64,000 nucleotides of DNA from Streptomyces sp. CGMCC 4.7035 (GTDB lineage: Bacteria > Actinomycetota > Actinomycetes > Streptomycetales > Streptomycetaceae), in NCBI RefSeq assembly GCF_031583065.1, contig NZ_CP134053.1:4154001-4218000 (forward strand), in the 5' to 3' direction. A program made the position numbers and the translations under genes. Below the pieces are notes generated by a model. The model worked only from the letters and a program-made list of their open reading frames with translations. It made no database searches and was not told the origin of the DNA. Numbering within the stretch: position 1 is the stretch's first letter; each line of letters opens with the position of its first letter. Of the stretch, positions 9,234 through 22,910 are shown in pieces.

Positions 9234-12050
9234 TCACGCCAGCTGTCGCCGCACCAGCTCGTGCAGCCGTCCGTTCGTGTCCGCGAGCAGCTGCGCCGGC
9301 GGCCCCTGCTGGGCGACCCTGCCGTCCTCCATCACGATGACGCGGTCCGCGTCCAGCACCGTGGACAGGCGGTGGGCGATCACGATCCGGGTGGCGTTCA
9401 GAGCGCGGGTGGACTCGATGACCTTGCGCTGGGTCTCGTTGTCCAACGCGCTCGTCGCCTCGTCGAAGAACAGGATGCGCGGGCGCCGGATCAGCGCCTG
9501 GGCGATCATCAGACGCTGGCGCTGGCCGCCGGAGATCGCGCCGCTGCCCTGGACGATGGTGTGCAGCCCCATCGGCATCCGCTTGATGTCCTCGGCGAGT
9601 CCCGCCATCTCGGCCGCCGCCATCGCCTCCTCCGGCGTGTACGGCTCGGTTCCGCAGATGACGTCCAGGAGGGAGCCGGTGAACGGCTGGGCGTGCTGGA
9701 GCACCACCCCGCACTGACGGCGCACCGCCGACTGGTCGAGCGCCGCCAGGTCCTGGCCGTCGTACAGGACGCTGCCCGAGGCCGGTTTGTCGAAGCCGAT
9801 CAGCAGGCGCAGCAGCGTGGACTTGCCGCAGCCGCTCGGGCCCACGATCGCCACGAACTCGCCCGGCTTCACCTCGAAGGAGACGTCGTCGAGGACGAGA
9901 GGACCGTCGTCGGCGTACCGGAACGACAGCCGGCGCGCCTCGATACCGCCGGACAGGACGCCGGGGCGCGTACTCGCCGTGCGTACCTCCGGCGTGGCGT
10001 CCAGCACCGGCCTGATCTCCTCGAACAGCGGCAGCGCCGCCACCGCCGAGACGAACGCGCCCGTCAGCTGCGTGACCGAGGTCAGCAGCATGGTCACCGA
10101 CGTGGTGAAGGTGAGGAAGTCGGCGGCCGACAGGGCGCCCCTGGCCGGGCCCGCGAGCAGCATGAACAGCAGCAGCGAGCACAGCGGCAGATAGACCGCG
10201 CCCAGAACCGTGGTGAGGTTCTTGATCCGGCCGACCTTCTGCTGGAGCTCACGGCTGCGCGCGAACTCCCGCGCCCAGGCGGCGTACGCGTAGTTCTCGG
10301 CCGCCGCGACGCGCAGCTTCGGCAGGCCGCGCAGGGTCTGGAACGCCTGGTTGTTCAGCTTGTTGGAGAGCTGGACCAGGCGCCGCTGCCAGCGCACCTG
10401 CCACAGTCCGAGCCCCAGGAACACGACGGCGATGACGACGAGCATGCCGATCGCGGCCAGCGCCATGGGCACGCTGTACCAGAGCAGCAGGCCCAGGTTC
10501 ATCGCCCCCACCGTCACCGACTGCGCCACCACCGGACCGACCCCGGCCAGCAGCCGGCGGATGGCGCTGATGCCCATCGCCGCGCTCGCCAGCTCACCGG
10601 TCGAGCGCTCGGCGAAGAACTTCGTCGGCAGCCTCAACAGGCGGTCCCAGACGGCCGGTTGGAGCGTCGCCTCGATGCGCCCCTCCAGGCGCAGGATGGT
10701 CATGTTCTCCAGCAGCATGAACGCCGCCGCGACCACGCCGGTCACCATGAGGGCGAGGCAGACCTGGACGATCAGCCCCTCCTGCGCCTTCGGCACGTAC
10801 TCGCCGAGCACCTTGCCGGTGGCGATGGGCACCAGCGCGCCGATCGCCACGGTCACCAGACCGCTGAGCAGGAGGCCGACCAGATCACCGCCCGTGCCGC
10901 GCATGCTGAACCGCAGCAGCCGCAACGGGCTGAGGCGCTGCTCGGGCAGGGGGCGGTAGAACATCACGGCCCGCGATTCAAACTCCGCCGCGTTCGCCTT
11001 CTCGATCGGCGTCTCGCGCCCCGACGACGGCTGGACGGCGACATAACCGCCCCGCCGCCACAGCAGCGCCACCGGCGCACCCGACAGGGCCCGGTGACCC
11101 ACCAGCGGGCCGATGTCGTCGTGCCACCAGCGCCCGTCGAGCCGTACGGCCCGGGTACGGACCCGGGAGGCGACCGCGATGCGCTCGACCGGGTCGAGGC
11201 GGTCGCTCTCGGTGCCGCTCTGCGCGGGTTCGGCGAGGGTGATCCCGGCGGCGCGTGCGACGAGCTTGCAGGCCGCGTACGTGGCGTCGGCGTCGGCCGC
11301 CGTCACGCGCTTCGCCGACGACGTGCCGATCGAGGCGAGCAGGGTCCGGTCGGCCTGGGCGCGGACCGCCTCGCCCGCCTTGATGCCGGCCGCCGTGCGG
11401 GTCTCGTGGGTGCGCTCCACCTGCTCGATCCACCGGTCGAGGGTGGCGAGCAACCGGTACTGCTGGTCGACCATGCCCTGCCAGACCGCGGGGTCCACCA
11501 GCAGATCGGCCGCCGCTTCCGCACCGTACAGGGAGCCGTACTGGACGCTGCCCGGCGGCACCTGCATCCAGAAGACGTCGTCGTCGGTGATGTCGGCGGC
11601 CCGTTCGGTGGCCATCGGTGCCTGGAAGAGGATGGACAGGCCGCGGCCGACGCCCAGGGCGAGGGCGTACTCCAGGGGGCTCGTGGTGGGCGGTACGTAC
11701 TGGGGGTTGCCGTACGCGTCGTACGACCAGGTCTGGGTGTCCGGGGTCTGGTACAGCTCGCGCAGCTGGATGCGGCGCACCACACAGTCGCGCACCGGCC
11801 GGGCGACCAGGGTGTGCTGGGGTCCTGTGACCGGGCCGAGCAGCAAGGAGCCCGCTTCGAGTCGGCCGAGGTGGTGCCAGTGGCCCTGGACGGCCGCGTC
11901 GACCGCGTACAGGTCCAGCGCGCCGGTCACGACCAGCCACAGCACCTGCGGCCCCTCCAGATCGAGCCGGCCGGTCCCGGAGCAGTCGATCGGGGTGCCC
12001 ATCCGGCCGAGGGCATCGAGGACGAGGTCGCCCTCCTGAACCGCCGTCAT
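9234..12050 (-). CDS. NHLM-type peptide export ABC transporter, permease/ATP-binding protein (second ABC subunit)
   Basis: A 938-residue membrane protein. Roughly the first 330 residues form a sensor-like region reminiscent of a cyclic-nucleotide-binding/cupin fold. A six-helix ABC exporter domain follows (about 390-680), then an ATPase domain with Walker A GPSGCGKST, signature SGGQRQRL and Walker B ILFFDEATSALD. This architecture is that of the second ABC protein of NHLM bacteriocin export systems. The start is ATG 12050, one base after the stop of the C39-ABC gene (TGA-G-ATG), so translation is coupled. It is the last gene of the precursor-adaptor-transporter cassette and presumably forms the export channel with the upstream ABC protein. 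It lacks a peptidase domain. Confidence 0.9.
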   Translation of the reverse strand: MTAVQEGDLVLDALGRMGTPIDCSGTGRLDLEGPQVLWLVVTGALDLYAVDAAVQGHWHHLGRLEAGSLLLGPVTGPQHTLVARPVRDCVVRRIQLRELYQTPDTQTWSYDAYGNPQYVPPTTSPLEYALALGVGRGLSILFQAPMATERAADITDDDVFWMQVPPGSVQYGSLYGAEAAADLLVDPAVWQGMVDQQYRLLATLDRWIEQVERTHETRTAAGIKAGEAVRAQADRTLLASIGTSSAKRVTAADADATYAACKLVARAAGITLAEPAQSGTESDRLDPVERIAVASRVRTRAVRLDGRWWHDDIGPLVGHRALSGAPVALLWRRGGYVAVQPSSGRETPIEKANAAEFESRAVMFYRPLPEQRLSPLRLLRFSMRGTGGDLVGLLLSGLVTVAIGALVPIATGKVLGEYVPKAQEGLIVQVCLALMVTGVVAAAFMLLENMTILRLEGRIEATLQPAVWDRLLRLPTKFFAERSTGELASAAMGISAIRRLLAGVGPVVAQSVTVGAMNLGLLLWYSVPMALAAIGMLVVIAVVFLGLGLWQVRWQRRLVQLSNKLNNQAFQTLRGLPKLRVAAAENYAYAAWAREFARSRELQQKVGRIKNLTTVLGAVYLPLCSLLLFMLLAGPARGALSAADFLTFTTSVTMLLTSVTQLTGAFVSAVAALPLFEEIRPVLDATPEVRTASTRPGVLSGGIEARRLSFRYADDGPLVLDDVSFEVKPGEFVAIVGPSGCGKSTLLRLLIGFDKPASGSVLYDGQDLAALDQSAVRRQCGVVLQHAQPFTGSLLDVICGTEPYTPEEAMAAAEMAGLAEDIKRMPMGLHTIVQGSGAISGGQRQRLMIAQALIRRPRILFFDEATSALDNETQRKVIESTRALNATRIVIAHRLSTVLDADRVIVMEDGRVAQQGPPAQLLADTNGRLHELVRRQLA

Positions 12051-12051
12051 C

Positions 12052-14286
12052 TCACCGCTCCTTGACCAGTTCGGCGTATGCCCCACCGGCCGCCACCAGG
12101 GCGTCGTGCCGCCCGCGTTCCACGATCGTGCCGTGCTGGAGCACCACGATCTCGTCGCTGTCGCGCACGGTGCTGAGCCGGTGCGCGATGACCACACAGG
12201 CGCAGCCGCGCTTGCGCAGGTTGTCGATCACGGTCTGCTCGGTCTCCGCGTCCAGGGCGCTGGTCACCTCGTCGAGGACCAGAATGCTGGGGTCGCGCAC
12301 CAGAGCCCGTGCGATCTCCAGGCGTTGGCGTTGCCCGCCGGAGAAGTTCCGCCCGTCCTGCTCGACCCGGCTGTGGATGCCGCCCGGACGGCGCATCACG
12401 ACGTCGTACAGCGCGGCGTCCCGCAGCGCGGCGACCACCGCGTCGTCCGGGATCGACGGGTCCCACAGCGCCACGTTGTCGCGGACCGTGCCCTCGAAGA
12501 GGAAGACGTCCTGGTCGACGAAGGAGACGGACGCGGCGAGCGCGCCGCGCGGAATGTCCTCCAGACGCCGGCCGTCGATGCGGATCACGCCCTCCCACGG
12601 GGCGTACAGACCCGAGATCAGCCGGGAGACCGTGGACTTGCCGCTGCCCGAGCCGCCGACCAGCGCAACCTGCCGGCCGGGGCCGACCGTCAGGTCGAAG
12701 CCGCTCAGCAGCGGCTTGTCGAGCGGGCTGTAACCGAACGTGATGTTCTCCAGCTCGACATGGCCGTGCAGACGGCGGGTCGACGCGCCGCGGCCCGAGC
12801 GGCCGTAGAGGGGGTCGGCCTGGAAGTTCTCCACGTCCTTCAGCCGGGCCACGTCCGCCGCGAAGTCCTGGATGCGGCCCGCGACCCCGTTGAGCCGGGT
12901 GATCGGCGCGGTGAACCGGGTCACCAGGGCCTGGAAGGCGACCAGCAGACCCACTGATATATGACCCTCGACCGCCCGCAGACCGCCGATCCACAGGATC
13001 AGCGCGCTGTTGAGCGTGGCGAGCGTCGGCGCGACCACACCCAGCCAGGCGCTGGGCACACCGAGCCGCTGCTGCTCCTCCAGTGTGGTGGCGTGCTGCC
13101 CGGCCCACTTGCGGAAGTAGCCGTCCTCGCCGCCGGTCGCCTTCATCGTCTCGATCAACTGCAGCCCGGTGTACGCCGTGTTGGTCAGCCGGGCGCTGTC
13201 GGCGCGCAGCTTCGCCGTGCGGGTCGCGCGCAGCCGTACGACGACCCGCATCGCCACCACGTTGAGCAGCGCGACGCCGATGCCGACGAAGGTCAACTGG
13301 GGGTCGTACGTGTACAGCAGCACCGCGTACAGCACGACGACGATCGCGTCGACGCCCGCCGCCGCGAGGTCGCGGGCCAGGGTCTCGGCGACCGCGTCGT
13401 TGGACTGCAGGCGCTGCACGAGATCGGCGGGGCTGCGCTGGGCGAAGAACGTCACCGGAAGCCGCAGCAGATGCCGCAGGAAGCGCGCGCTGGAGAGCGT
13501 CGAGGAGATGACACGGCCGCGCAGCAGGTTCGCCTGTTGCAGCCAGGTCAGTACGACCGTGAGCAGGACGCAGGCGGCCATCGACGTGAACAGCACGCCG
13601 AGCATCGAGGTCTGCCCGCCGATGAGGAACATGTCGATGTACGTCCGGCTGAGCGCGGGCAGCGCGGCGCCGACCGCCACCAGGAGGAGGCTCGCGAGGA
13701 TGGCGGCGGGCATGGTGCCCGACGTACCGCGCAGCCGGGCCGGCAGGGCGCCCAGGACGCCCGGCCTGCGGCCGCCCTTGGTGAAGTCCTCGCCCGGCTC
13801 CATCACCAGGACGACCCCGGTGAAGCTGGTGTCGAAGTCCTCCATCGGCACGAAACGGCGGCCCTTGCCGGGGTCGTTGACGTACACCCCCCGGCGGCCG
13901 AAGCGGCGGCCCATGCCGTCGTAGACGACGTAGTGGTTGAACTCCCAGAACAGGATCGCGGGCGCCCTCACCTCGGCGAGCGCGGCCGTGTCCATCTGCA
14001 TGCCCTTGGCCGTCAGGCCATAACTGCGGGCCGCCTTGAGGAGGTTACTGGCGCGCGAGCCGTCGCGGGAGACACCGCAGGCGATGCGCAGCTCCTCGAG
14101 CGGGATGTGCCGGCCGTAGTGGCCGAGCACCATGGCGAGCGAAGCGGCGCCGCACTCCACGGCCTCCATCTGGAGCACCGTGGGCGTGCGGACGGTCCTC
14201 TGCCGGCTCTTGGGCACGGTGCGCTTCGGCGGTGCGGCGCGGCGTCTGCCCCGTACCGGGGGCAGGGTGTCCTGGGGAGCGGTCAC
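12052..14286 (-). CDS. NHLM-type ABC transporter with N-terminal C39 leader peptidase
   Basis: A 744-residue fusion of peptidase, membrane and ATPase domains that cuts double-glycine leaders and exports the peptide. The C39 domain (about 35-165) shows Gln39 and Cys45 in VLQMEAVECGAAS, His118 in FNHYVVYDG and Asp138 in VNDPGKG, all the expected active-site residues. The ABC exporter domain follows, then Walker A GGSGSGKST, signature FSGGQRQRL and Walker B ILVLDEVTSALD. The start is GTG 14286, which overlaps the adaptor stop as GTGA; a longer frame to 14388 would run deep into the adaptor gene. The matching substrate is the Gly-Gly precursor at 15181-15396. Confidence 0.92.
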   Translation of the reverse strand: MTAPQDTLPPVRGRRRAAPPKRTVPKSRQRTVRTPTVLQMEAVECGAASLAMVLGHYGRHIPLEELRIACGVSRDGSRASNLLKAARSYGLTAKGMQMDTAALAEVRAPAILFWEFNHYVVYDGMGRRFGRRGVYVNDPGKGRRFVPMEDFDTSFTGVVLVMEPGEDFTKGGRRPGVLGALPARLRGTSGTMPAAILASLLLVAVGAALPALSRTYIDMFLIGGQTSMLGVLFTSMAACVLLTVVLTWLQQANLLRGRVISSTLSSARFLRHLLRLPVTFFAQRSPADLVQRLQSNDAVAETLARDLAAAGVDAIVVVLYAVLLYTYDPQLTFVGIGVALLNVVAMRVVVRLRATRTAKLRADSARLTNTAYTGLQLIETMKATGGEDGYFRKWAGQHATTLEEQQRLGVPSAWLGVVAPTLATLNSALILWIGGLRAVEGHISVGLLVAFQALVTRFTAPITRLNGVAGRIQDFAADVARLKDVENFQADPLYGRSGRGASTRRLHGHVELENITFGYSPLDKPLLSGFDLTVGPGRQVALVGGSGSGKSTVSRLISGLYAPWEGVIRIDGRRLEDIPRGALAASVSFVDQDVFLFEGTVRDNVALWDPSIPDDAVVAALRDAALYDVVMRRPGGIHSRVEQDGRNFSGGQRQRLEIARALVRDPSILVLDEVTSALDAETEQTVIDNLRKRGCACVVIAHRLSTVRDSDEIVVLQHGTIVERGRHDALVAAGGAYAELVKER

Positions 14287-15089
14287 GGCAGAAGCCAATC
14301 GATGGGGCGCTGATCGGCCAGGCGGATCGAACCCGTGGCCAGGGTCATGGAGGAGAGGGCGAACGGCGGGCCGTCCACGGACGACCACCTGTAGCCGCTC
14401 TTGGTGCCGGACGACCGGTCGAGCCGTACGAGTACGGCCACCGGGCGGCCCTTCCTGGTGAACTGCTCGCCCAACTGGCTGTCCCCGAGGTACGCGGCGA
14501 TCCGCTGCGCCGACTGGGCCGTACGGTCCACGGACTTCACATGGCCGCGCAGCACGCCGTACTCCTGGGCGGGCACCGACTGGACGGTGAGGTCGACGGA
14601 GGCGTTCGCGGGGATGGAGGCGGCGTTCTCGGCGGGGACGTACACCGTCGCGTACAGCGGGTCCGACGAGTGGGCGACCTTCTCCACGGCGGCGACGTTC
14701 GCCCCGGTCTGGATGATCTGGCCGATGGTGGCGGCGAGCGCGGTGACGCGGCCCGCGGCGACCGTACGGACCACCGAGTCGCCTTGCTCTGTACGGACCT
14801 TGAGAACGGGCGAGTTCGCGGGCAGTCGCTCGCCCTCCTTGGCGAGGACCGCGACGACCTGCCCGGCCACGGGGCTCTGCAGGATGTAACTGCCCTCGCC
14901 GTGCGTGAGGATGGCGGGCGCGCCGACGGTGGAGGCCACCGAGCCGGTGACGGCCCAGACGGACGCGGCGGCCATGACGACCACGGTCACGGAGAGCACG
15001 AGCCAGCCCTGGGGGCGCGCGAAGCGCACCGGGAGGTCGAGCTCTTCGGGCGATTGCAGCTTGGCGAGGGCCTGCCTACGGAACTGCAC
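14283..15089 (-). CDS. HlyD-family adaptor of the NHLM peptide export system
   Basis: A 268-residue membrane-fusion-type protein. One N-terminal membrane anchor (about 28-50, GWLVLSVTVVVMAAASVWAV) is followed by a lipoyl/barrel-sandwich region (HGEGSYILQSPVAGQVVAVLA) and a C-terminal beta-barrel part. It probably couples the two ABC proteins to the cell envelope and is shorter than Gram-negative HlyD. The start is GTG 15089 with GAGGG upstream. The 3' end overlaps the C39-ABC start by four bases. The bases just before the start (GGGAAGTTCC) repeat exactly those before the precursor gene. Confidence 0.87.
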   Translation of the reverse strand: MQFRRQALAKLQSPEELDLPVRFARPQGWLVLSVTVVVMAAASVWAVTGSVASTVGAPAILTHGEGSYILQSPVAGQVVAVLAKEGERLPANSPVLKVRTEQGDSVVRTVAAGRVTALAATIGQIIQTGANVAAVEKVAHSSDPLYATVYVPAENAASIPANASVDLTVQSVPAQEYGVLRGHVKSVDRTAQSAQRIAAYLGDSQLGEQFTRKGRPVAVLVRLDRSSGTKSGYRWSSVDGPPFALSSMTLATGSIRLADQRPIDWLLP

Positions 15090-15129
15090 GGAACTTCCCT
15101 CACCTGTCGGAGAGATCTACGGCATCCGA

Positions 15130-15162
15130 GAGTCCCGGAACCGGGATGCGGTTCCGGGACTC
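15130..15162 (-). terminator. Hairpin between peptide precursor and export genes (terminator/attenuator)
   Basis: A perfect 13-bp stem, GAGTCCCGGAACC (15130-15142) with GGTTCCGGGACTC (15150-15162), around a 7-base loop. It lies 18 bases after the precursor stop and about 40 bases before the adaptor start on the same strand. Partial termination here would allow much more precursor than exporter to be made, a common arrangement in bacteriocin operons. Confidence 0.7.
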
Positions 15163-15180
15163 AACGGCACAAAGGTGCGA

Positions 15181-15396
15181 TCAGAGACCGGCGACCAGGT
15201 TCGTGACCGGGGCGGTGTTCAGGCCGGTGACACCCTCGACGGTGCCGACAACCGTGCCGACCAGGCCGGAAACCGGGGCGACGCCGTCCACCAGGCCGGT
15301 GACGGTGCCCACGGCGTTCAGCGACAGGCCACCGGACACGGCGTCCAGCTCGGCGTCCGAGATCTCGGCGGTCTCAACCTGGGGGGTGGAGTTCAT
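15181..15396 (-). CDS. Double-glycine-leader peptide precursor, cysteine-free core (bacteriocin/RiPP-like)
   Basis: A 71-residue peptide. The leader (1-23) contains TAEISDAELDAVSGG, a textbook C39 recognition sequence ending in Gly-Gly. Predicted cleavage leaves a 48-residue core (24-71). The core has no Cys, no Lys or Arg, no aromatic residue and only two acidic residues, and is dominated by Val, Gly, Leu and Thr. It contains two similar segments, 32-47 (VTGLVDGVAPVSGLVG) and 56-70 (VTGLNTAPVTNLVAG). Similar Streptomyces peptides are often labelled type A2 lantipeptide, but without Cys and without a LanM-type enzyme nearby thioether rings are impossible from this gene set. ATG 15396 has GAAGGGAAG upstream. 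The downstream hairpin and exporter genes complete the cassette. Its activity is unknown. Confidence 0.85.
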   Translation of the reverse strand: MNSTPQVETAEISDAELDAVSGGLSLNAVGTVTGLVDGVAPVSGLVGTVVGTVEGVTGLNTAPVTNLVAGL

Positions 15397-15874
15397 GATG
15401 GAACTTCCCTTCATATGGATATTCACAAGGGGGAGAGCGGCCCCCCTCTGGGGACAGACGGTCGGCCGCGGTCCGCGGGCGCCGGGCACCCGTTGCCGGG
15501 ACCCTCTGGAGTGGCCCCCGCGGTGCAACGGATCAAAGCACGCCGACGCGCGGCGGTTCCACTCAACCACCGCTCTCACCAGGGCAATTGGCGTTCTCGG
15601 GCGCAGATCCGTGCAGGCGTGCGCACGTCTTGGCGGCGACTTCTTCACACCCTTCGCGGCATCGGCGCGCGAGGCCCCTTGCCGCCCCGCGACCGAATGG
15701 GGCAGTCCCGGCCCAATGGCTCGGCCCCCGGCGCGTGACTGTGCAGATCCGCCGTGCGCCGTGACCCGCTTGCGCAGCCGATGTGCAGATTCCCTGAAGC
15801 CGGGATTCCGCTCAGCACCTTGAACCGACCGTTACCAGCCGGTAGCGGATCGTGTCCGCGTGTGCGCCCAGGCT
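15397..15874. other. Intergenic region upstream of the peptide precursor
   Basis: These 478 bases carry no convincing gene on either strand. On the minus strand the stretch next to the precursor must hold its promoter, including an A/T-richer patch near 15405-15430 just before the ribosome site, but I could not fix -35 and -10 boxes. A weak hairpin, CCGTTACC with GGTAGCGG (about 15828-15847), lies 28 bases beyond the thioesterase stop and may terminate that gene. Confidence 0.4.
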
Positions 15875-16476: not shown

Positions 16477-17883
16477 TTGAGTCACAAACGCGTACCCAAG
16501 CGCAAGGCCGCGATCGCGGCGGGAAGCGTGGCGGCGCTCGGAGCTGCGGCCCTCTTTCTGCCCAACGCCATGGCGTCCCAGACGGACTCGTCGAACAACG
16601 CCACGGCCAGAACGTTCAAGGCGGACGACGTCTCGGACATAGCCGCGCAGCTGGCCTCCCAGCTGGGTGACGCCTTCGCGGGTTCGTACTACAACGCCGA
16701 CAAGCAGCAGGTCGTCATCAACGTGGTCGGCGACAACAGCAACGTCGTCAACATCATCAAAAAGGCGGGGGCGATCCCCAACCAGGTGCGGAACAGCACC
16801 GCCACGCTCCAGGCCGCCGCCAAGACGCTCAGGACCAGGGCGACGATCGCCGGTACCGCGTGGTCCGTCGACCCCAAGACCAACGAGATCCAGGTCAGCG
16901 CCGACAGCACCGTCAGCGGCACCAAGTGGGACACGCTGGAGTCGACGGTCAAGAGCCTCGGCTCGGGCGTAGCGACCCTGAAGAAGTCCGCGGGCACCTT
17001 CAAGACGTTCGTGTCGGGCGGTGACGCCATCTTCGCCCAGGCCGACGCGGGCGGCGTCCGTTGCTCCCTCGGCTTCAACGTCACCGCGAGCGACGGCAGC
17101 CCCGCCTTCCTGACGGCGGGTCACTGCGGAGTCGCGGCGAAGCAGTGGTCCGACTCCCAGAACGGGCAGCCGATCGCCACCGTCGACCAGGCCACCTTCC
17201 CCGGCGAGGGCGACTTCTCGCTCGTCAAGTACGACGACCCGGGCACCCAGGCCCCCAGCGAGGTCAACGTCGGCAACGGCCAGACGGTCCAGATCAACCA
17301 GGCCGCGGACGCGGTGGTGGGCCAGCAGGTCTTCCGGATGGGCAGCACGACCGGTCTGCACGACGGCACCGTCACCGGCCTCGACGCCACCGTCAACTTC
17401 CAGAGCGAGACCGACCCGGGCGGTGTCGACACCGTCACCGGCCTCATCCAGACCAACGTCTGCGCCGAGGCGGGGGACAGCGGCGGCTCCCTGTTCACCC
17501 AGGACGGCAGCGCGGTCGGCCTGACGTCGGGCGGCAGCGGCGACTGCACCGCCGGCGGCGAGACCTTCTTCCAGCCGGTGACCACCGCACTCCAGGCGAC
17601 CGGTGCGACGCTCGGCGCGGGCGGCGCGGCGGGCGCCGGCGACCAGGGCGGTGCCGCTGACCAGAGCGCCGGCCCGGGTGACGAGGGCGCCGGCGCCGGC
17701 GACCAGAGCGGTGCGGGCGACCAGGGCGGTGCCGCTGACCAGAGCGCCGGCACCGGTGACGAGAGCGGCGCCGGTGACCAGGCGGGCGGCGCGGCCGACC
17801 AGTCCGGCAGCGCCCACGACCAGTCCGGGCAGTCGGACCACAGCGGTGCCGGCGACGGCTCCGGACTGGAGTCGAGCCACTGA
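16477..17883 (+). CDS. Secreted S1-family serine protease (streptogrisin/alpha-lytic type) with repetitive C-terminal tail
   Basis: A 468-residue pre-pro-protease. A signal peptide (about 1-34, cleavage near AMAS) is followed by a long propeptide (about 35-190) of the alpha-lytic/streptogrisin kind that assists folding. The chymotrypsin-like domain (about 191-375) carries the full triad: His216 in LTAGHCG, Asp246 in GEGDFSLV and Ser335 in GDSGGSLF. Paired cysteines lie around His and Ser. Residues from about 383 to the end are a low-complexity Gly/Asp/Gln/Ala/Ser tail with repeats of the type GDQGGAADQSAG. The start is TTG 16477, supported by AGGAGG eight bases upstream. A strong hairpin follows. 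It probably acts as an extracellular protease; the tail may hold it in the wall or matrix. Confidence 0.93.
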   Translation: MSHKRVPKRKAAIAAGSVAALGAAALFLPNAMASQTDSSNNATARTFKADDVSDIAAQLASQLGDAFAGSYYNADKQQVVINVVGDNSNVVNIIKKAGAIPNQVRNSTATLQAAAKTLRTRATIAGTAWSVDPKTNEIQVSADSTVSGTKWDTLESTVKSLGSGVATLKKSAGTFKTFVSGGDAIFAQADAGGVRCSLGFNVTASDGSPAFLTAGHCGVAAKQWSDSQNGQPIATVDQATFPGEGDFSLVKYDDPGTQAPSEVNVGNGQTVQINQAADAVVGQQVFRMGSTTGLHDGTVTGLDATVNFQSETDPGGVDTVTGLIQTNVCAEAGDSGGSLFTQDGSAVGLTSGGSGDCTAGGETFFQPVTTALQATGATLGAGGAAGAGDQGGAADQSAGPGDEGAGAGDQSGAGDQGGAADQSAGTGDESGAGDQAGGAADQSGSAHDQSGQSDHSGAGDGSGLESSH

Positions 17884-18064: not shown

Positions 18065-20209
18065 TCAGTCGGACGTTCGCGCTCGCAAAAGAAGCAACGC
18101 CACGTCGTCCAGTCGCTCCTCGTCCCGCGCCGTGTCCCGCACCAGCCGGTCGGCCAGCGCCTCCAGCGATTCGCCGCCGCCCTGCGAGAACCGCTCGCCC
18201 AGCTCCGCCAGCGCGTCCTCGATGTCCACCCCTGGGGACTCGATCAGCCCGTCGGTGTAGAGCGCGAGCACCGAACCCGGCGCCAGCGCGAACTCGGTCG
18301 TCGGATACCGGGCGGGCCCCTCGATCCCCAGCAGCGGCCCTCCGGCCAGATCGAGCACCCGTACCCGCCCGTCCGGTCTGCGCAGCAGCGGCGGCGGATG
18401 CCCCGCCCGCGCCATGACCACCCGCCCCCGCTCGGGGTCCAGCCGCAGATACACACAGCTCGCGAACAGTTCGGCCCCCAGGTCGATCAGCAGCCGGTTC
18501 GTGCTGCGCATCACCTCGGACGGCGACTGCCCGACGGTCGTGTACGCCCGTACGGCCGTACGGATCTGCCCCATCAGTCCCGCCGCCGTCACGTTGTGCC
18601 CCTGCACGTCCCCGATCACGGCGGCCGCCCCCGCTCCGGTGGGCACCAGGTCGTAGAAGTCGCCCCCGATCTCCATCCCCTGCGTGGCGGGCAGATAGCG
18701 GGCGGCCGCCTCGATGCCCGGCAGCGACGGCAACGAGTCCGGCAGCAGCGCGGCCTGCAGCCCGTGCGCCAGCTGGTTCTTGGCGTCGTAGAGCAGGGCC
18801 CGCTCCAGTGCCTGCGCGATCAGCCCGCTGAGGCTGGTCAGCACGGCCCGCTCGTCGGCCGGGAACGCATGCGGTTCGGTGAACGCGAGAACACATGTGC
18901 CCACCGGCCGCCCCGAGGCGATCAGCGGCAGATACGCCCACGCGGCCATCCCGTCCGGCGTGGCCTGCCGTATCGGGTACAGGTGCTCGAGCTGCTGTCG
19001 CGAGTCGAAGAACGCGGGCACCCCGGTGCTCAGCACGTGGGCTCCCGGAATCGGCGCGGTCAGCGGCGCGCCGTGCCAGCGCTCCACGACGGACGGGTCC
19101 GGATAACCGCGGTGCCCGAGCACATGCAGCCGGCCGCCGTGCGAGCCGAGGATCACCAGGGCCCTGCTGCCGACGGCGGGCGCGATCTCGTCGGCGACCA
19201 GCTGCACCACGTCCTGTACCCCCACCGCCTCGGTGAGCGCGCTGGCCAGGCTCAGCACGTGCGAGATCGTCACCAGCCGCCTGCCGCCCTCGGCCGGCCG
19301 GGGCCCGGTGCGGCTCATGTCGGAGACCGCGCGGGCCCGGGCGATGCGGAGACTCAGCCCGTTGGTGCTCGGGTAGAGACGGAAGGAGAGCCAGTCGCCG
19401 GGCGGCCGCAACGCCACGAACGACGTCACATGCTGGCTGATCAGCGCGGCCCGGTACTGGTCCTCGTACATCGGATCGTTCAGCCATGGCACCGCGGCCC
19501 ACAGCTGGGTGCCGAGCAGGGTGCCGGCCGGAACGCCGAGCATCTCGGCCGCGGCCGGATTCGCGTAGCTGATCCGCCCGTGCATGTCGAGCGCGCACAG
19601 CCCGTACGGAAGCCGTGCCACCATCCGGGCCGCCTCCATCCAGCCGACCGTGCCCGCCGCGGCCGTCAGCGGCAGGGCGGCGAGCAGATCGGGCTCGGGA
19701 CCCACCGGGCGGTTCTCGGCCGCGGCCCGCTCCAGACGCTGCGCGAGCCGTTCACAGGCCGCCATCAGATGGCCCCGCGCACGGTCGGACAGTTCGGGCT
19801 GATGGGAACCGGGCCAGGTCACGAACACCGCGCCGTACCGGGTATCCGGTGTGGCCACGGGCATCGCGGCCAGGGCGAACGGATACGGCAGCACCACCGC
19901 GATCCGTGGATAGCGTTTCGCCATCTCCTCCTCGCCGCTCACCCAGACGAGCCGCCGCTCGCGCAGCGCCTCCGCGACGGGTAGCGGCGTGCCGAGCCCG
20001 ATCCGTTCCCAGGGGGCGGCGAACGCGCGGGGCAGCCCCGCCATGACCGCCATCTCCAGGACCGGCTCGTCGTGCGCCAGCAGATACACCGCCCCGGAAT
20101 GCGCGTGGACGTCGTCCAGCATGGCCGCCAGCGTCAGCGACAGCATCGGACGCCGCACCGGCACTGTGGCGGCGGGCGGCTCCCGGGTGGGCGTCTGCCA
20201 GTCGGACAC
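18065..20209 (-). CDS. PP2C/SpoIIE-type serine phosphatase with GAF and PAS sensor domains
   Basis: A 714-residue multidomain protein. An N-terminal GAF-like region (about 25-165) and a PAS domain (about 205-290, YGLCALDMHGRISYANPAAA) come first. A second GAF (about 315-460) and a C-terminal SpoIIE phosphatase domain (about 490-710) follow. Metal-binding motifs are present: GGDFYDLV, IGDVQGHN, YTDGLIE and LDDVALLLL. Such proteins dephosphorylate anti-anti-sigma factors in response to signals bound by the sensor domains. The start is GTG 20209 with AGGAGG upstream. It is divergent from a paralogue at 20457. There is no ATP-binding anti-sigma domain, unlike the neighbour. Confidence 0.9.
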   Translation of the reverse strand: MSDWQTPTREPPAATVPVRRPMLSLTLAAMLDDVHAHSGAVYLLAHDEPVLEMAVMAGLPRAFAAPWERIGLGTPLPVAEALRERRLVWVSGEEEMAKRYPRIAVVLPYPFALAAMPVATPDTRYGAVFVTWPGSHQPELSDRARGHLMAACERLAQRLERAAAENRPVGPEPDLLAALPLTAAAGTVGWMEAARMVARLPYGLCALDMHGRISYANPAAAEMLGVPAGTLLGTQLWAAVPWLNDPMYEDQYRAALISQHVTSFVALRPPGDWLSFRLYPSTNGLSLRIARARAVSDMSRTGPRPAEGGRRLVTISHVLSLASALTEAVGVQDVVQLVADEIAPAVGSRALVILGSHGGRLHVLGHRGYPDPSVVERWHGAPLTAPIPGAHVLSTGVPAFFDSRQQLEHLYPIRQATPDGMAAWAYLPLIASGRPVGTCVLAFTEPHAFPADERAVLTSLSGLIAQALERALLYDAKNQLAHGLQAALLPDSLPSLPGIEAAARYLPATQGMEIGGDFYDLVPTGAGAAAVIGDVQGHNVTAAGLMGQIRTAVRAYTTVGQSPSEVMRSTNRLLIDLGAELFASCVYLRLDPERGRVVMARAGHPPPLLRRPDGRVRVLDLAGGPLLGIEGPARYPTTEFALAPGSVLALYTDGLIESPGVDIEDALAELGERFSQGGGESLEALADRLVRDTARDEERLDDVALLLLRARTSD

Positions 20210-20456
20210 GCGACCACCTCCTCGCACGGCCGCGCGACGGGTCCCCCACGGATCAAGGCTCCCTCCTGACGGGGCGTCGCGCACGGCGAGCGCGGGAGTT
20301 CCGGCGTATCGGTCCACCGTGCTCCCGGACCGTCACCCTTCGTCGTCGGAGGGAGGGCAGGAATGCCCTGTCACTCCCAGAAGCACAAGGGCGGCGCCGG
20401 ACCTCCACATGGTCACAGGGGCTGCGCGAGCGTCCTGGAAGCGCTGTAATGACAGG

Positions 20457-22910
20457 GTGGGCAGTGAGGGCGCTGCGGGACGCAGAACGAGAACCCTACG
20501 TGCGGAACTTGCCCTCAAGACGCTCACCGAGGACCTCGACCCGCGGGAGCGCCTGCGCCGCGTGCTCGAACAGGCGCTCGTTTTCGCGGGGGCGACCCTG
20601 GCCGCCGTCTACACCCCGGACGAGGCGGGTGGCCAGCTGCGCGTCACCGAGTCGGTCGGCGTACCGAGGGCGCTGTACGGGCTGCGCGACACCTATCCCC
20701 TTGCCGACGGCGGCCCCGCGGCGGACGTGTACCGCTCCGGGCAGCCTCTGTGGCTCGCCGCGGAGGACCTGGGCCGGTGCGTCGATGCCCGCCGCCTGCC
20801 CGTCAGGGACTTCTCGCTGGCCGTCCTGCCACTGCGTGACGGCGGTGCTCTGGCGGCCGTCAGCGACAGCCCGGACGGCTTCGACGCCGAGGAACGCGAG
20901 TGCCTCCAGATGCTCGCCGAGGCCGTCGTCGGCCCCACGCGCGCCTCCGCAACACCCAGTGAGCCGACCGGCAGTTCCTTCAGCCTGGCCATGGACAGTG
21001 GCCGGGTCGAGGTCGACGACGAGATGCTGGAGCTGTTCGAGATCGACCCGCAGGATTTCGACGGCAGGGTCGAGACCCTGCTCGCCCGGACCGTGCCGGA
21101 GGACCTGCCCGCCCTGATGTCCGTGGTCGAAGCCGACCACATGTCCATCGGCGACCGGGAGCTGGAGTTCCGCATCCTCCAGCCCTCCGGTGAGCCGAGG
21201 TGGCTGCGGCTGCGCGGGCGCCTGCTCCCTGCGGGCGAGGGACGCCCGGACCTGCTCGTCGGCACGGTCGCCGACGCCTCGAAGCTGCGCCCCGCCGTCA
21301 GCGACGTCACCCGCATCCAGCGGCTCGCCGCGGCCCTCGCCACCGCGGGCACCGTCCGTGACGTGAGCCGGGCCGTGGTCGCCGCCCTGCGCAAGCCGCT
21401 GCAGGCCGACCGCGTCGCCCTCGCCGAGCTGGAGTCCGACCGGCTCGTCGTCACCGTCCTGGACCCGCCCGAACCCGAGGCCTGGCCCGAGCTGTGGCGC
21501 ACGGAGTGGCGCTCGGAGTGGCCCGACGCTCCTGTGCGCGCCATGCCGACCCTAGCCACCGCGCTCCGGGAGGGGCGCGCCCAGATCTGGCCCGCCGGCA
21601 CTGCGCTGGAGCCCGCGCTCGCGGAGGTCGGCCCCGGCGGTCTGGCCGTGCTGCCGCTGTCGGCCAGTGGGGGCCTGGCCGGCGCCTGCCTGGTCGGCTG
21701 GAACGACCCCCATGACTTCGCCCCCGACGAACGCGCCCTGCTCACCGCCGTGGCGGGCCTTGCCGGACAGGCGCTGCTGCGCGCCCACTCGTTCGACGCC
21801 GAGCACGAGCTGATCGGCATGCTCCAGCGCGCCCTCCTGCCGCGTCGCTTGCCGCGGCTGCCGGGCGCGGTCGCCGTGGCCCGCTATCTGCCCACCACCG
21901 CGGGCCTGGAGCTCGGCGGCGACTGGTACGACGTGATCCCGCTGCCGGACAACCACGTCGCCCTCGTCATCGGCGACGTCCAGGGCCACAGCGCCGGCGC
22001 CGCCACCCTGATGGGCCAGCTGCGCACGGCCCTGCGCGCGTACGCCGTCGAGGGGCACCCGCCGGACGTCGTCGTCTCGCGTGCCAACCGGCTCCTGTTG
22101 GACATGGAGTCCGACCTCTTCGCGACCTGCTGCTATGTCGACGTCGACATGGAGGAGGGCACCGCCTGGTACGTCCGCGCCGGACACCTCCCGCCCGTGC
22201 TGCGGCATCCGGACGGCACCACGGAGATCGTCGAGTCCGAGGGCGGACCACCCCTCGGCGTCATCACCCAGGCCGACTTCCCGGTGAGCCCGTTGCGGTT
22301 GCAGCCCGGCACGCTGGTCGCCCTGACCACGGACGGCCTGGTCGAGTCAGCCGAGCTCGACCTCGAGGACGGTCTCGAACGGCTGGCCGACCAACTGTCC
22401 GCCGCCGACCCCGGGCACCTCGGGCTCGTCGCGGACGCCGTGCTCACCGAGGCCAACCGCAGCGACGACGTGGCCCTGCTGCTCGTGCGCTACGACGGCA
22501 TGGCGGTGCGCCCGCTGCGCGAGAGCTGGACGGTGTGGCGCGTACCCGAGGCGGTCCGGCACGCCCGCCGCTTCACCCGGCGCACGATGCGGGCCTGGGG
22601 GGTGACGGAGGACCTCGACACGGTGCAGCTCGTCGTCTCCGAACTCGTCACCAACGCCCTCGTCCACACCGACGGCCAGGTCCGTCTCGACCTCACCCTC
22701 ATCAACCACCGGTTGCGCATCGCGGTCGCCGACTCCTCACCGCGTACGCCGGTCAAGCCGACGAGCATCGGCTGGGAGGCGACGGGCGGCCGCGGCATCC
22801 TCCTCGTCGAGGCAGTGTCGGCCGGGTGGGGGACGCTCCCGGTCAGCGGCGGCAAGCAGGTGTGGGCGGACGTCGCGCTGGAGCACTCGCCGCTCACGGC
22901 GGGCACGTGA
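20457..22910 (+). CDS. SpoIIE-type phosphatase with GAF/PAS domains and C-terminal anti-sigma kinase-like domain
   Basis: About 817 residues. A GAF domain (about 15-160) is followed by a PAS-like segment (about 175-275) and another GAF (about 285-440). The SpoIIE phosphatase domain (about 460-675) has GGDWYDVI, IGDVQGHS, TTDGLVE and SDDVALLLV. The C-terminal RsbW-type ATPase domain (about 690-810) has VSELVTNALVHT and GGRGILLV. The protein therefore combines both halves of a partner-switching module: phosphatase toward an anti-anti-sigma factor and kinase/anti-sigma activity. GTG 20457 is chosen because it begins the conserved region after a large intergenic space, but its ribosome site is weak and the start is uncertain. 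No sigma factor gene is adjacent. Confidence 0.87.
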   Translation: MGSEGAAGRRTRTLRAELALKTLTEDLDPRERLRRVLEQALVFAGATLAAVYTPDEAGGQLRVTESVGVPRALYGLRDTYPLADGGPAADVYRSGQPLWLAAEDLGRCVDARRLPVRDFSLAVLPLRDGGALAAVSDSPDGFDAEERECLQMLAEAVVGPTRASATPSEPTGSSFSLAMDSGRVEVDDEMLELFEIDPQDFDGRVETLLARTVPEDLPALMSVVEADHMSIGDRELEFRILQPSGEPRWLRLRGRLLPAGEGRPDLLVGTVADASKLRPAVSDVTRIQRLAAALATAGTVRDVSRAVVAALRKPLQADRVALAELESDRLVVTVLDPPEPEAWPELWRTEWRSEWPDAPVRAMPTLATALREGRAQIWPAGTALEPALAEVGPGGLAVLPLSASGGLAGACLVGWNDPHDFAPDERALLTAVAGLAGQALLRAHSFDAEHELIGMLQRALLPRRLPRLPGAVAVARYLPTTAGLELGGDWYDVIPLPDNHVALVIGDVQGHSAGAATLMGQLRTALRAYAVEGHPPDVVVSRANRLLLDMESDLFATCCYVDVDMEEGTAWYVRAGHLPPVLRHPDGTTEIVESEGGPPLGVITQADFPVSPLRLQPGTLVALTTDGLVESAELDLEDGLERLADQLSAADPGHLGLVADAVLTEANRSDDVALLLVRYDGMAVRPLRESWTVWRVPEAVRHARRFTRRTMRAWGVTEDLDTVQLVVSELVTNALVHTDGQVRLDLTLINHRLRIAVADSSPRTPVKPTSIGWEATGGRGILLVEAVSAGWGTLPVSGGKQVWADVALEHSPLTAGT

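Follow-up and report, generated by a model that had tools for sequence, protein, structure and literature searches.

This report concerns a four-gene cassette for the export of a small double-glycine peptide in Streptomyces sp. CGMCC 4.7035. The cassette lies in a 64,000-nucleotide stretch of contig NZ_CP134053.1 (assembly GCF_031583065.1, forward-strand positions 4,154,001 to 4,218,000), which as a whole is called the window and supplies the numbering used below. An earlier note on this DNA, made from the sequence alone, had described a 71-residue precursor with a Gly-Gly leader, followed by an adaptor, a C39 peptidase/ABC protein and a second NHLM ABC protein, and these genes are real and lie on the same strand (Table 1). 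The leader ends in ...ISDAELDAVSGG, and its columns P5, V7, T9, E11, D14, L17, D18, V20 and G23 were invariant in the 22 homologues compared. The note's account of the core was upheld: it is Thr-rich, and Cys, Lys, Arg and the aromatic residues Phe, Trp and Tyr are all missing from it. Within the core, Gly recurs at a spacing of 4 (4 seen versus 1.4 expected, p 0.03) and Val/Leu/Ile at a spacing of 3 (12 seen versus 6.8 expected, p 0.003; both p values uncorrected, 16 spacings tested), which would favour helices.

Table 1. Peptide cassette and upstream block in the window
Feature	Position	Strand	Remarks
Double-glycine precursor peptide	15181..15396	-	71 aa plus stop
Longer reading of precursor	in-frame upstream ATG at 15414	-	77 aa
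Leader, residues 1-23 (MNSTPQVETAEISDAELDAVSGG)	15328..15396	-	basis: sequence
Core, residues 24-71	15184..15327	-	48 residues, net charge -2
HlyD-like adaptor, 268 aa	14283..15089	-	TIGR03794 E 1.2e-43; PF13437 above cut-off
C39 peptidase/ABC exporter (NHLM ABC1)	12052..14283	-	TIGR03796 1021 bits vs cut-off 853; PF03412 E 4e-35
Second NHLM ABC permease/ATPase (ABC2), start inferred	9234..12050	-	TIGR03797 902 bits vs cut-off 709
Conserved promoter/regulatory block: GTGAAGaag box, ~110 bp, GTGCTTTGATCc box	15518..15649	-	ends 122 bp before peptide ATG

The exporter is of the NHLP/NHLM type and the precursor falls outside the NHLP/NHLM leader families. The adaptor scored 149.6 bits against TIGR03794, slightly short of the curated cut-off of 156.2. 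The start of ABC1 was inferred from its overlap with the HlyD stop codon, and ABC1 was the sole TIGR03796 match above cut-off in the 8.09-Mb genome, as well as the sole one spanning the peptidase end of that model. The peptide gave nine matches at E<=1, none of them to TIGR03793 (NHLP leader) or TIGR03798 (Nif11-type leader). The match to Pfam L_biotic_typeA (13.9 bits) was below the cut-off of 21.7, and the matches to Bacteriocin_IIc (E 0.027) and to lantibiotic and graspetide-type profiles were likewise sub-threshold.

The cassette is widespread. Homologues of the peptide were found in 201/295 genomes of the same genus, a count that is a lower bound because 5/20 listed genomes first scored negative in the genus search hold divergent cassettes. 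A 22-sequence profile detected the peptide in 140/197 genomes of a sample of the order (2/6 genera), which overlaps with the genus sample. The order peptide-HlyD-ABC1-ABC2 was kept in 20/20 divergent loci, in 19/19 still more divergent ones (the 20th locus of this batch, L133, is an unlinked peptide gene and was left out) and in 79/80 named loci, the sole exception being a truncated 4-kb contig; all of these loci were chosen by peptide match and not at random. Exporters with at least 76% identity occurred in 7/8 genomes that had only a weak peptide match and in 0/35 genomes without a convincing one. Four of these 35 genomes carry an exporter of 49–56% identity (ABC1 of L283 in G038, L284 in G330, L285 in G320 and L279 in G028); these are sister NHLM exporters in genomes without the peptide family and were not taken as members of the peptide system. 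At L283, a short GG-type peptide is encoded past the exporter on the opposite strand.

The composition of the peptide is also conserved. None of 100 distinct cassette peptides contained Cys or an aromatic core residue, one contained Lys/Arg in the core, and 99 had a net charge of -2 or -3. Among 19 further divergent cassette peptides, Cys and core aromatic residues were again missing and three had Lys/Arg. The pN/pS ratio (nonsynonymous to synonymous polymorphism) was 0.26 in the leader and 0.50 in the core (79 distinct genes; low pS), values that may be read as only mild support for constraint. The absence of Cys from the 100 and 19 cassette peptides excludes lanthionine, as the earlier note had argued from one sequence. 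The label "type A2 lantipeptide", frequent among the database matches listed (120 listed out of 626), was therefore rejected for this peptide, which has no Cys, no synthetase and a below-cut-off L_biotic_typeA match. A 2026 genome paper (PMC13047742), as far as its available part goes, has read a gene so labelled as an antimicrobial lantipeptide.

No LanM, YcaO, radical-SAM or other domains that modify ribosomally synthesized and post-translationally modified peptides (RiPPs) were found within ~20 kb on either side of the cassette by Pfam at E<=1e-5. The open reading frames (ORFs) searched were called by composition, with at least 60 aa in the window and at least 80 aa in the 11 kb left of it. 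A single LanC-like match turned up in the whole genome, a partial one to the C-terminal part (L051, G000:C1:3974046-3974498), 195 kb from the cassette. It may be a remnant of a lanthipeptide cluster; no LanM or LanB was seen by eye in 3.4 kb around it, a stretch on which no search was run.

The neighbourhood was compared by clustering called genes over 119 cassette loci (79 named, 39 divergent and the window), with flanks that in most cases covered ~4–5 kb before the peptide and 2–6 kb past the exporter. The cassette families were the most widespread; among the 39 divergent loci, the crude gene calls picked them up in 38, 33, 29 and 14, with six more from a second cluster of peptides. No recurring modifying gene was found in these flanks of a few kb, and the most frequent non-cassette family reached 5/39 divergent loci. 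The clustering also gave no recurring kinase, receptor or regulator. Nor did any immunity candidate recur, a result that covers ORFs of at least 60 aa, smaller ones not having been called. An alpha-lytic-type protease family was present in 70/119 loci; it and other syntenic neighbours were not taken as parts of the cassette because they are missing from the 39 divergent loci. The outcome that the earlier note would have counted as a refutation, a modifying gene consistently next to homologous cassettes, was thus not found within these flanks. NHLM genes follow the leader and core pattern in the other Streptomyces loci compared, and modifying domains are missing from the ORFs called within ~20 kb in the window. 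Its description of the cassette as self-contained holds for the four genes with their own exporter and is too narrow otherwise, since elsewhere in the genus the cassette belongs to a larger set, whose unlinked peptides share its leader and its type of promoter.

These unlinked peptides are here called orphans. Two or more matches to the 22-sequence profile were counted in 56/197 genomes of the order sample (a table count, not all inspected). The orphan set consists of 20 second-site loci and L133, 21 in total, to which four found via the promoter were added, giving 25. Each of the 21 loci encodes a peptide of 67–80 residues with a leader of the type, roughly, MNxxPQVETxEISDADLDxVSGG and a core differing from that of the cassette. 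The orphan cores are diverse, many of them with abundant Gly, Ala, Ser and Val; a single Cys occurs in 7/25 and none in 18/25. Neither the cassette adaptor nor its exporters were found in the 12–16 kb fetched at the 21 loci, and a generic ABC stretch at L104 (37% to ABC1) was not taken as an orphan exporter. Ten orphan-neighbour genes put to Pfam included no RiPP-modifying enzyme and no recurring immunity candidate. One gene family (eight genes) lies near seven orphans (L109, L110, L111, L113, L114, L120 and L133), often tail to tail; the one member put to Pfam was HTH_31/DUF5753, and the family was provisionally put down to local synteny.

Cassettes and orphans share a common promoter architecture, consisting of a GTGAAG-type box, ~110 bp and a GTGCTTTGATC box. 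Aligning the regions upstream of 87 cassettes revealed a block in which a GTGAAGaa box is followed, after ~110 bp, by a CGTGCTTTGATCc box. A hidden Markov model (HMM) was made from 86 of these regions, with the window promoter included twice and L087, where the block was not seen, dropped. All 86 training loci have a HlyD gene and none of the 21 orphans is among them. The window block was the top match in the window (102.7 bits) and is itself a training sequence. The 21 orphan loci were then scanned with the HMM on both strands. In 19 of them the top match was on the orphan's own strand and 40–160 bp upstream of it, where random placement expects 0.08. The best scores of shuffled loci had a median of 2.2 bits and did not exceed 13.1.

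A second, sequence-only model (R1) was made from 24 promoters, 13 of them orphan, and run on 20 genomes selected as cassette holders, 17 of which also have a known orphan or are the window genome. At E<1e-4, all 39 matches precede a same-leader peptide: 20 cassettes (HlyD confirmed beside 20/20), 15 orphans already in hand and four new sites, each with the peptide 40–119 bp downstream. The new sites are not fully blind, because the genomes G341, G384, G026 and G040 had earlier, unlisted extra peptide matches. In 24 genomes without the system, R1 gave no match at E<1e-4 (best E 0.006). As ~150 candidates per genome were scored, R1 may miss sites. The window genome has one R1 site at E<=0.1, that of its own cassette, which is also in training. 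Of 12 weak R1 matches (E >5e-4), 11 have no same-leader peptide in the stretch scanned and the twelfth, in G406, is upstream of the known orphan L120. Two weak matches (L259 and L261) were rejected as promoters, as they resemble coding sequence. A third (L260, 4903-5050, reverse strand, E 0.0075) lies upstream of a secreted-hydrolase-like ORF and may be chance or a non-peptide regulon member. A sigma-70 and terminator consensus scan found nothing. The boxes are the main invariant columns across the 24 promoters, and the consensus contains a GTG-type repeat ~22 bp apart. A long near-fixed block with such a repeat presumably resembles a response-regulator site.

A counterpart of the cassette has been described in S. 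coelicolor. According to the available part of PMC6629963 (2019), SCO0753 is a 77-aa cysteine-free hydrophobic peptide encoded upstream of HlyD, ABC and ABC genes (SCO0753-SCO0756) in many species, so that for that organism the lack of cysteines, the tie to an exporter and the conserved gene arrangement had been published before. The same source reports sco0753 as the top overexpressed gene (log2 6.3) in a dispersed sco5282-D125G strain and finds its operon nearly unexpressed in the null mutant. It also describes control through a two-component system and lists an exopolyphosphatase gene, SCO0757, next after the cassette. In the available parts of other papers, sco0753 was up in an aor1 deletion (PMC5733086) and sco0756 was among changed genes (PMC5882110, PMC6414726). 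The window peptide has the SCO0753-type traits of a 77-aa reading, no Cys and HlyD-ABC-ABC genes after it. A Ppx/GppA gene follows the cassette in the close relatives L157 and L166, as SCO0757 would require; in the window, ABC2 is followed by an AHSA1-like gene and not by Ppx. The available text of PMC6629963 reports neither unlinked same-leader peptides nor a shared promoter block, and open-access titles and abstracts, the part of the literature covered (subscription literature was not), describe neither the orphan set nor the shared promoter. The unlinked same-leader orphans and their shared promoter are new here.

Taken together, the leader, the exporter, the wide conservation, the lack of a recurring modifying gene, the orphans and the shared promoter with its specificity, all established by sequence comparison, lead to the following reading. 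The cassette probably, though by no means surely, exports one unmodified, hydrophobic, anionic peptide that is the most conserved member of a regulon with the orphans and likely acts at the surface. The C39 domain would cut after Gly23 and the ABC1/ABC2/HlyD complex would export the 48-residue core, likely in unmodified form. The orphan cores would presumably be processed by the same exporter in trans, so that the cassette peptide would belong to a dedicated regulon of unlinked genes with the same leader and promoter and other cores. The exported core would act at the hyphal surface or envelope, in morphology or aggregation, rather than as a toxin; such a role is the best-supported guess and is based mainly on the S. 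coelicolor expression data and on the lack of a recurring immunity gene. The response-regulator-like block would fit control by an SCO5282/5283-like system. Retention of promoter and leader beside diverged cores, with the boxes invariant, argues that both are under selection and does not prove export in trans. A wider proposal, a Streptomyces secreted-peptide regulon in which a conserved cassette and variable, strain-specific, single-gene unlinked peptides with interchangeable cores would be induced jointly through one promoter architecture and leave by one exporter, is put forward tentatively and is somewhat doubtful as yet.

Several observations weigh against this reading. Since seven of the 19 orphans that passed the HMM test do not outscore the best of the shuffled loci, the promoter argument is carried by the placement statistic. 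Two of the 21 orphans did not pass: at L109 the second-best match is rightly placed, and L117 fails. Among divergent cassettes, no promoter match could be detected at L127, L128, L132 and L134, and the block is incomplete at L124 and L130. Ten of the 15 in-hand orphan matches of R1 came from its training set, and the known orphan L120 was found at E 0.019 only. The genome G425 has an orphan (L133, G425:C1:827665-827814) and a strong promoter match, yet no orthologous exporter and no C39-NHLM match above cut-off; a lost exporter, an assembly gap or a different outlet may each account for it. No orphan was found in the window's own genome, which has the cassette member only. The shared promoter and leader may in part stem from recent duplication, with orphans as duplicates that carried both along, and not from a shared function. 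The AlphaFold model of the peptide is helical and weak (pLDDT, the predicted local distance difference test, 63), the fit of the window cassette to SCO0753-SCO0756 was judged by description and gene order, and cleavage, export in trans, lack of modification, SCO5282/5283-like control and surface function are inferred.

Other explanations would assign the exported core a different function. An unmodified class II bacteriocin, whose core inserts into competitors' membranes, perhaps by GxxxG-type helix packing, would agree with the double-glycine leader and C39 exporter, the sub-threshold Bacteriocin_IIc match, the Gly-4 and Val/Leu/Ile-3 spacing excess and the diverse orphan cores. Typical bacteriocins, however, are cationic and diversify fast, whereas this core is negatively charged and differs little from species to species, and no recurring immunity candidate was seen at the cassette among called ORFs of 60 aa or more or among the ten orphan neighbours; this explanation is considered unlikely. 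A core or fragment sensed as a signal by neighbouring hyphae is distinctly unlikely, as 48 hydrophobic residues are long for a pheromone and the locus has no recurrent gene for a kinase, receptor or regulator, in spite of conservation in about two thirds of the species sampled, a dedicated promoter and the two-component regulation in S. coelicolor (PMC6629963, available part).

Modification of the core by a remotely encoded enzyme (dehydration, lactam or lactone, or other) would explain the Thr-rich core and the sub-threshold lantibiotic and graspetide-type matches, and modifying enzymes are frequent companions of NHLP exporters (PMC2887384, available part). The lack of Cys in the 100 and 19 cassette peptides, the lack of a recurring enzyme and the partial state and 195-kb distance of the sole LanC-like match (LanB, YcaO, ATP-grasp and radical SAM were not searched genome-wide) make this very improbable.

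Parts of the proposed arrangement are known from other systems. In pneumococci, unlinked double-glycine peptides with one type of regulatory site share the exporters ComAB/BlpAB; those peptides are pheromones or bacteriocins with receptor or immunity genes, whereas none were found here. Chaplins, which use Sec signal peptides, and SapB resemble the peptide here in being small, hydrophobic and exported, with a proposed action at the hyphal surface. SapB, which is named in the available part of PMC6629963, is a modified lanthipeptide, unlike the present peptide with its GG leader, C39 exporter and lack of cysteine. NHLP/NHLM systems (TIGR03794/03796/03797; PMC2887384, available part) have the same three-gene exporter, which several precursors can share. 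The family described here differs in a leader that matches neither the NHLP- nor the Nif11-type model, in the lack of a modifying enzyme and in its unlinked, promoter-sharing precursors. Cyanobacterial double-glycine bacteriocin clusters likewise have C39-ABC and HlyD proteins and some distant precursors; according to the available part of PMC3140520, their precursors are dense at the cluster, modification enzymes are present and cores are scarcely conserved, whereas here the cassette core is conserved and the orphans are solitary.

Other genes were also noted. The secreted alpha-lytic-type protease of the window (16477-17883, forward strand) lies beside the peptide gene. Two large PAS/GAF/SpoIIE-phosphatase genes (18065-20317, reverse strand, and 19989-22910, forward strand) are divergent and overlap as called.

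Overall, the "type A2 lantipeptide" label directs searchers to a lanthionine that cannot form, and it is corrected here. If the family is real, its promoters offer a route to precursor genes that come out low in peptide searches. The role of the top overexpressed gene of dispersed-growth S. coelicolor had gone unexplained; as the head of a family defined by its promoter, should that be so, it would gain a gene set and a regulatory site. If the proposal is true, the variable cores would give each Streptomyces species its own repertoire of hyphal-surface or self/non-self peptides through one outlet.

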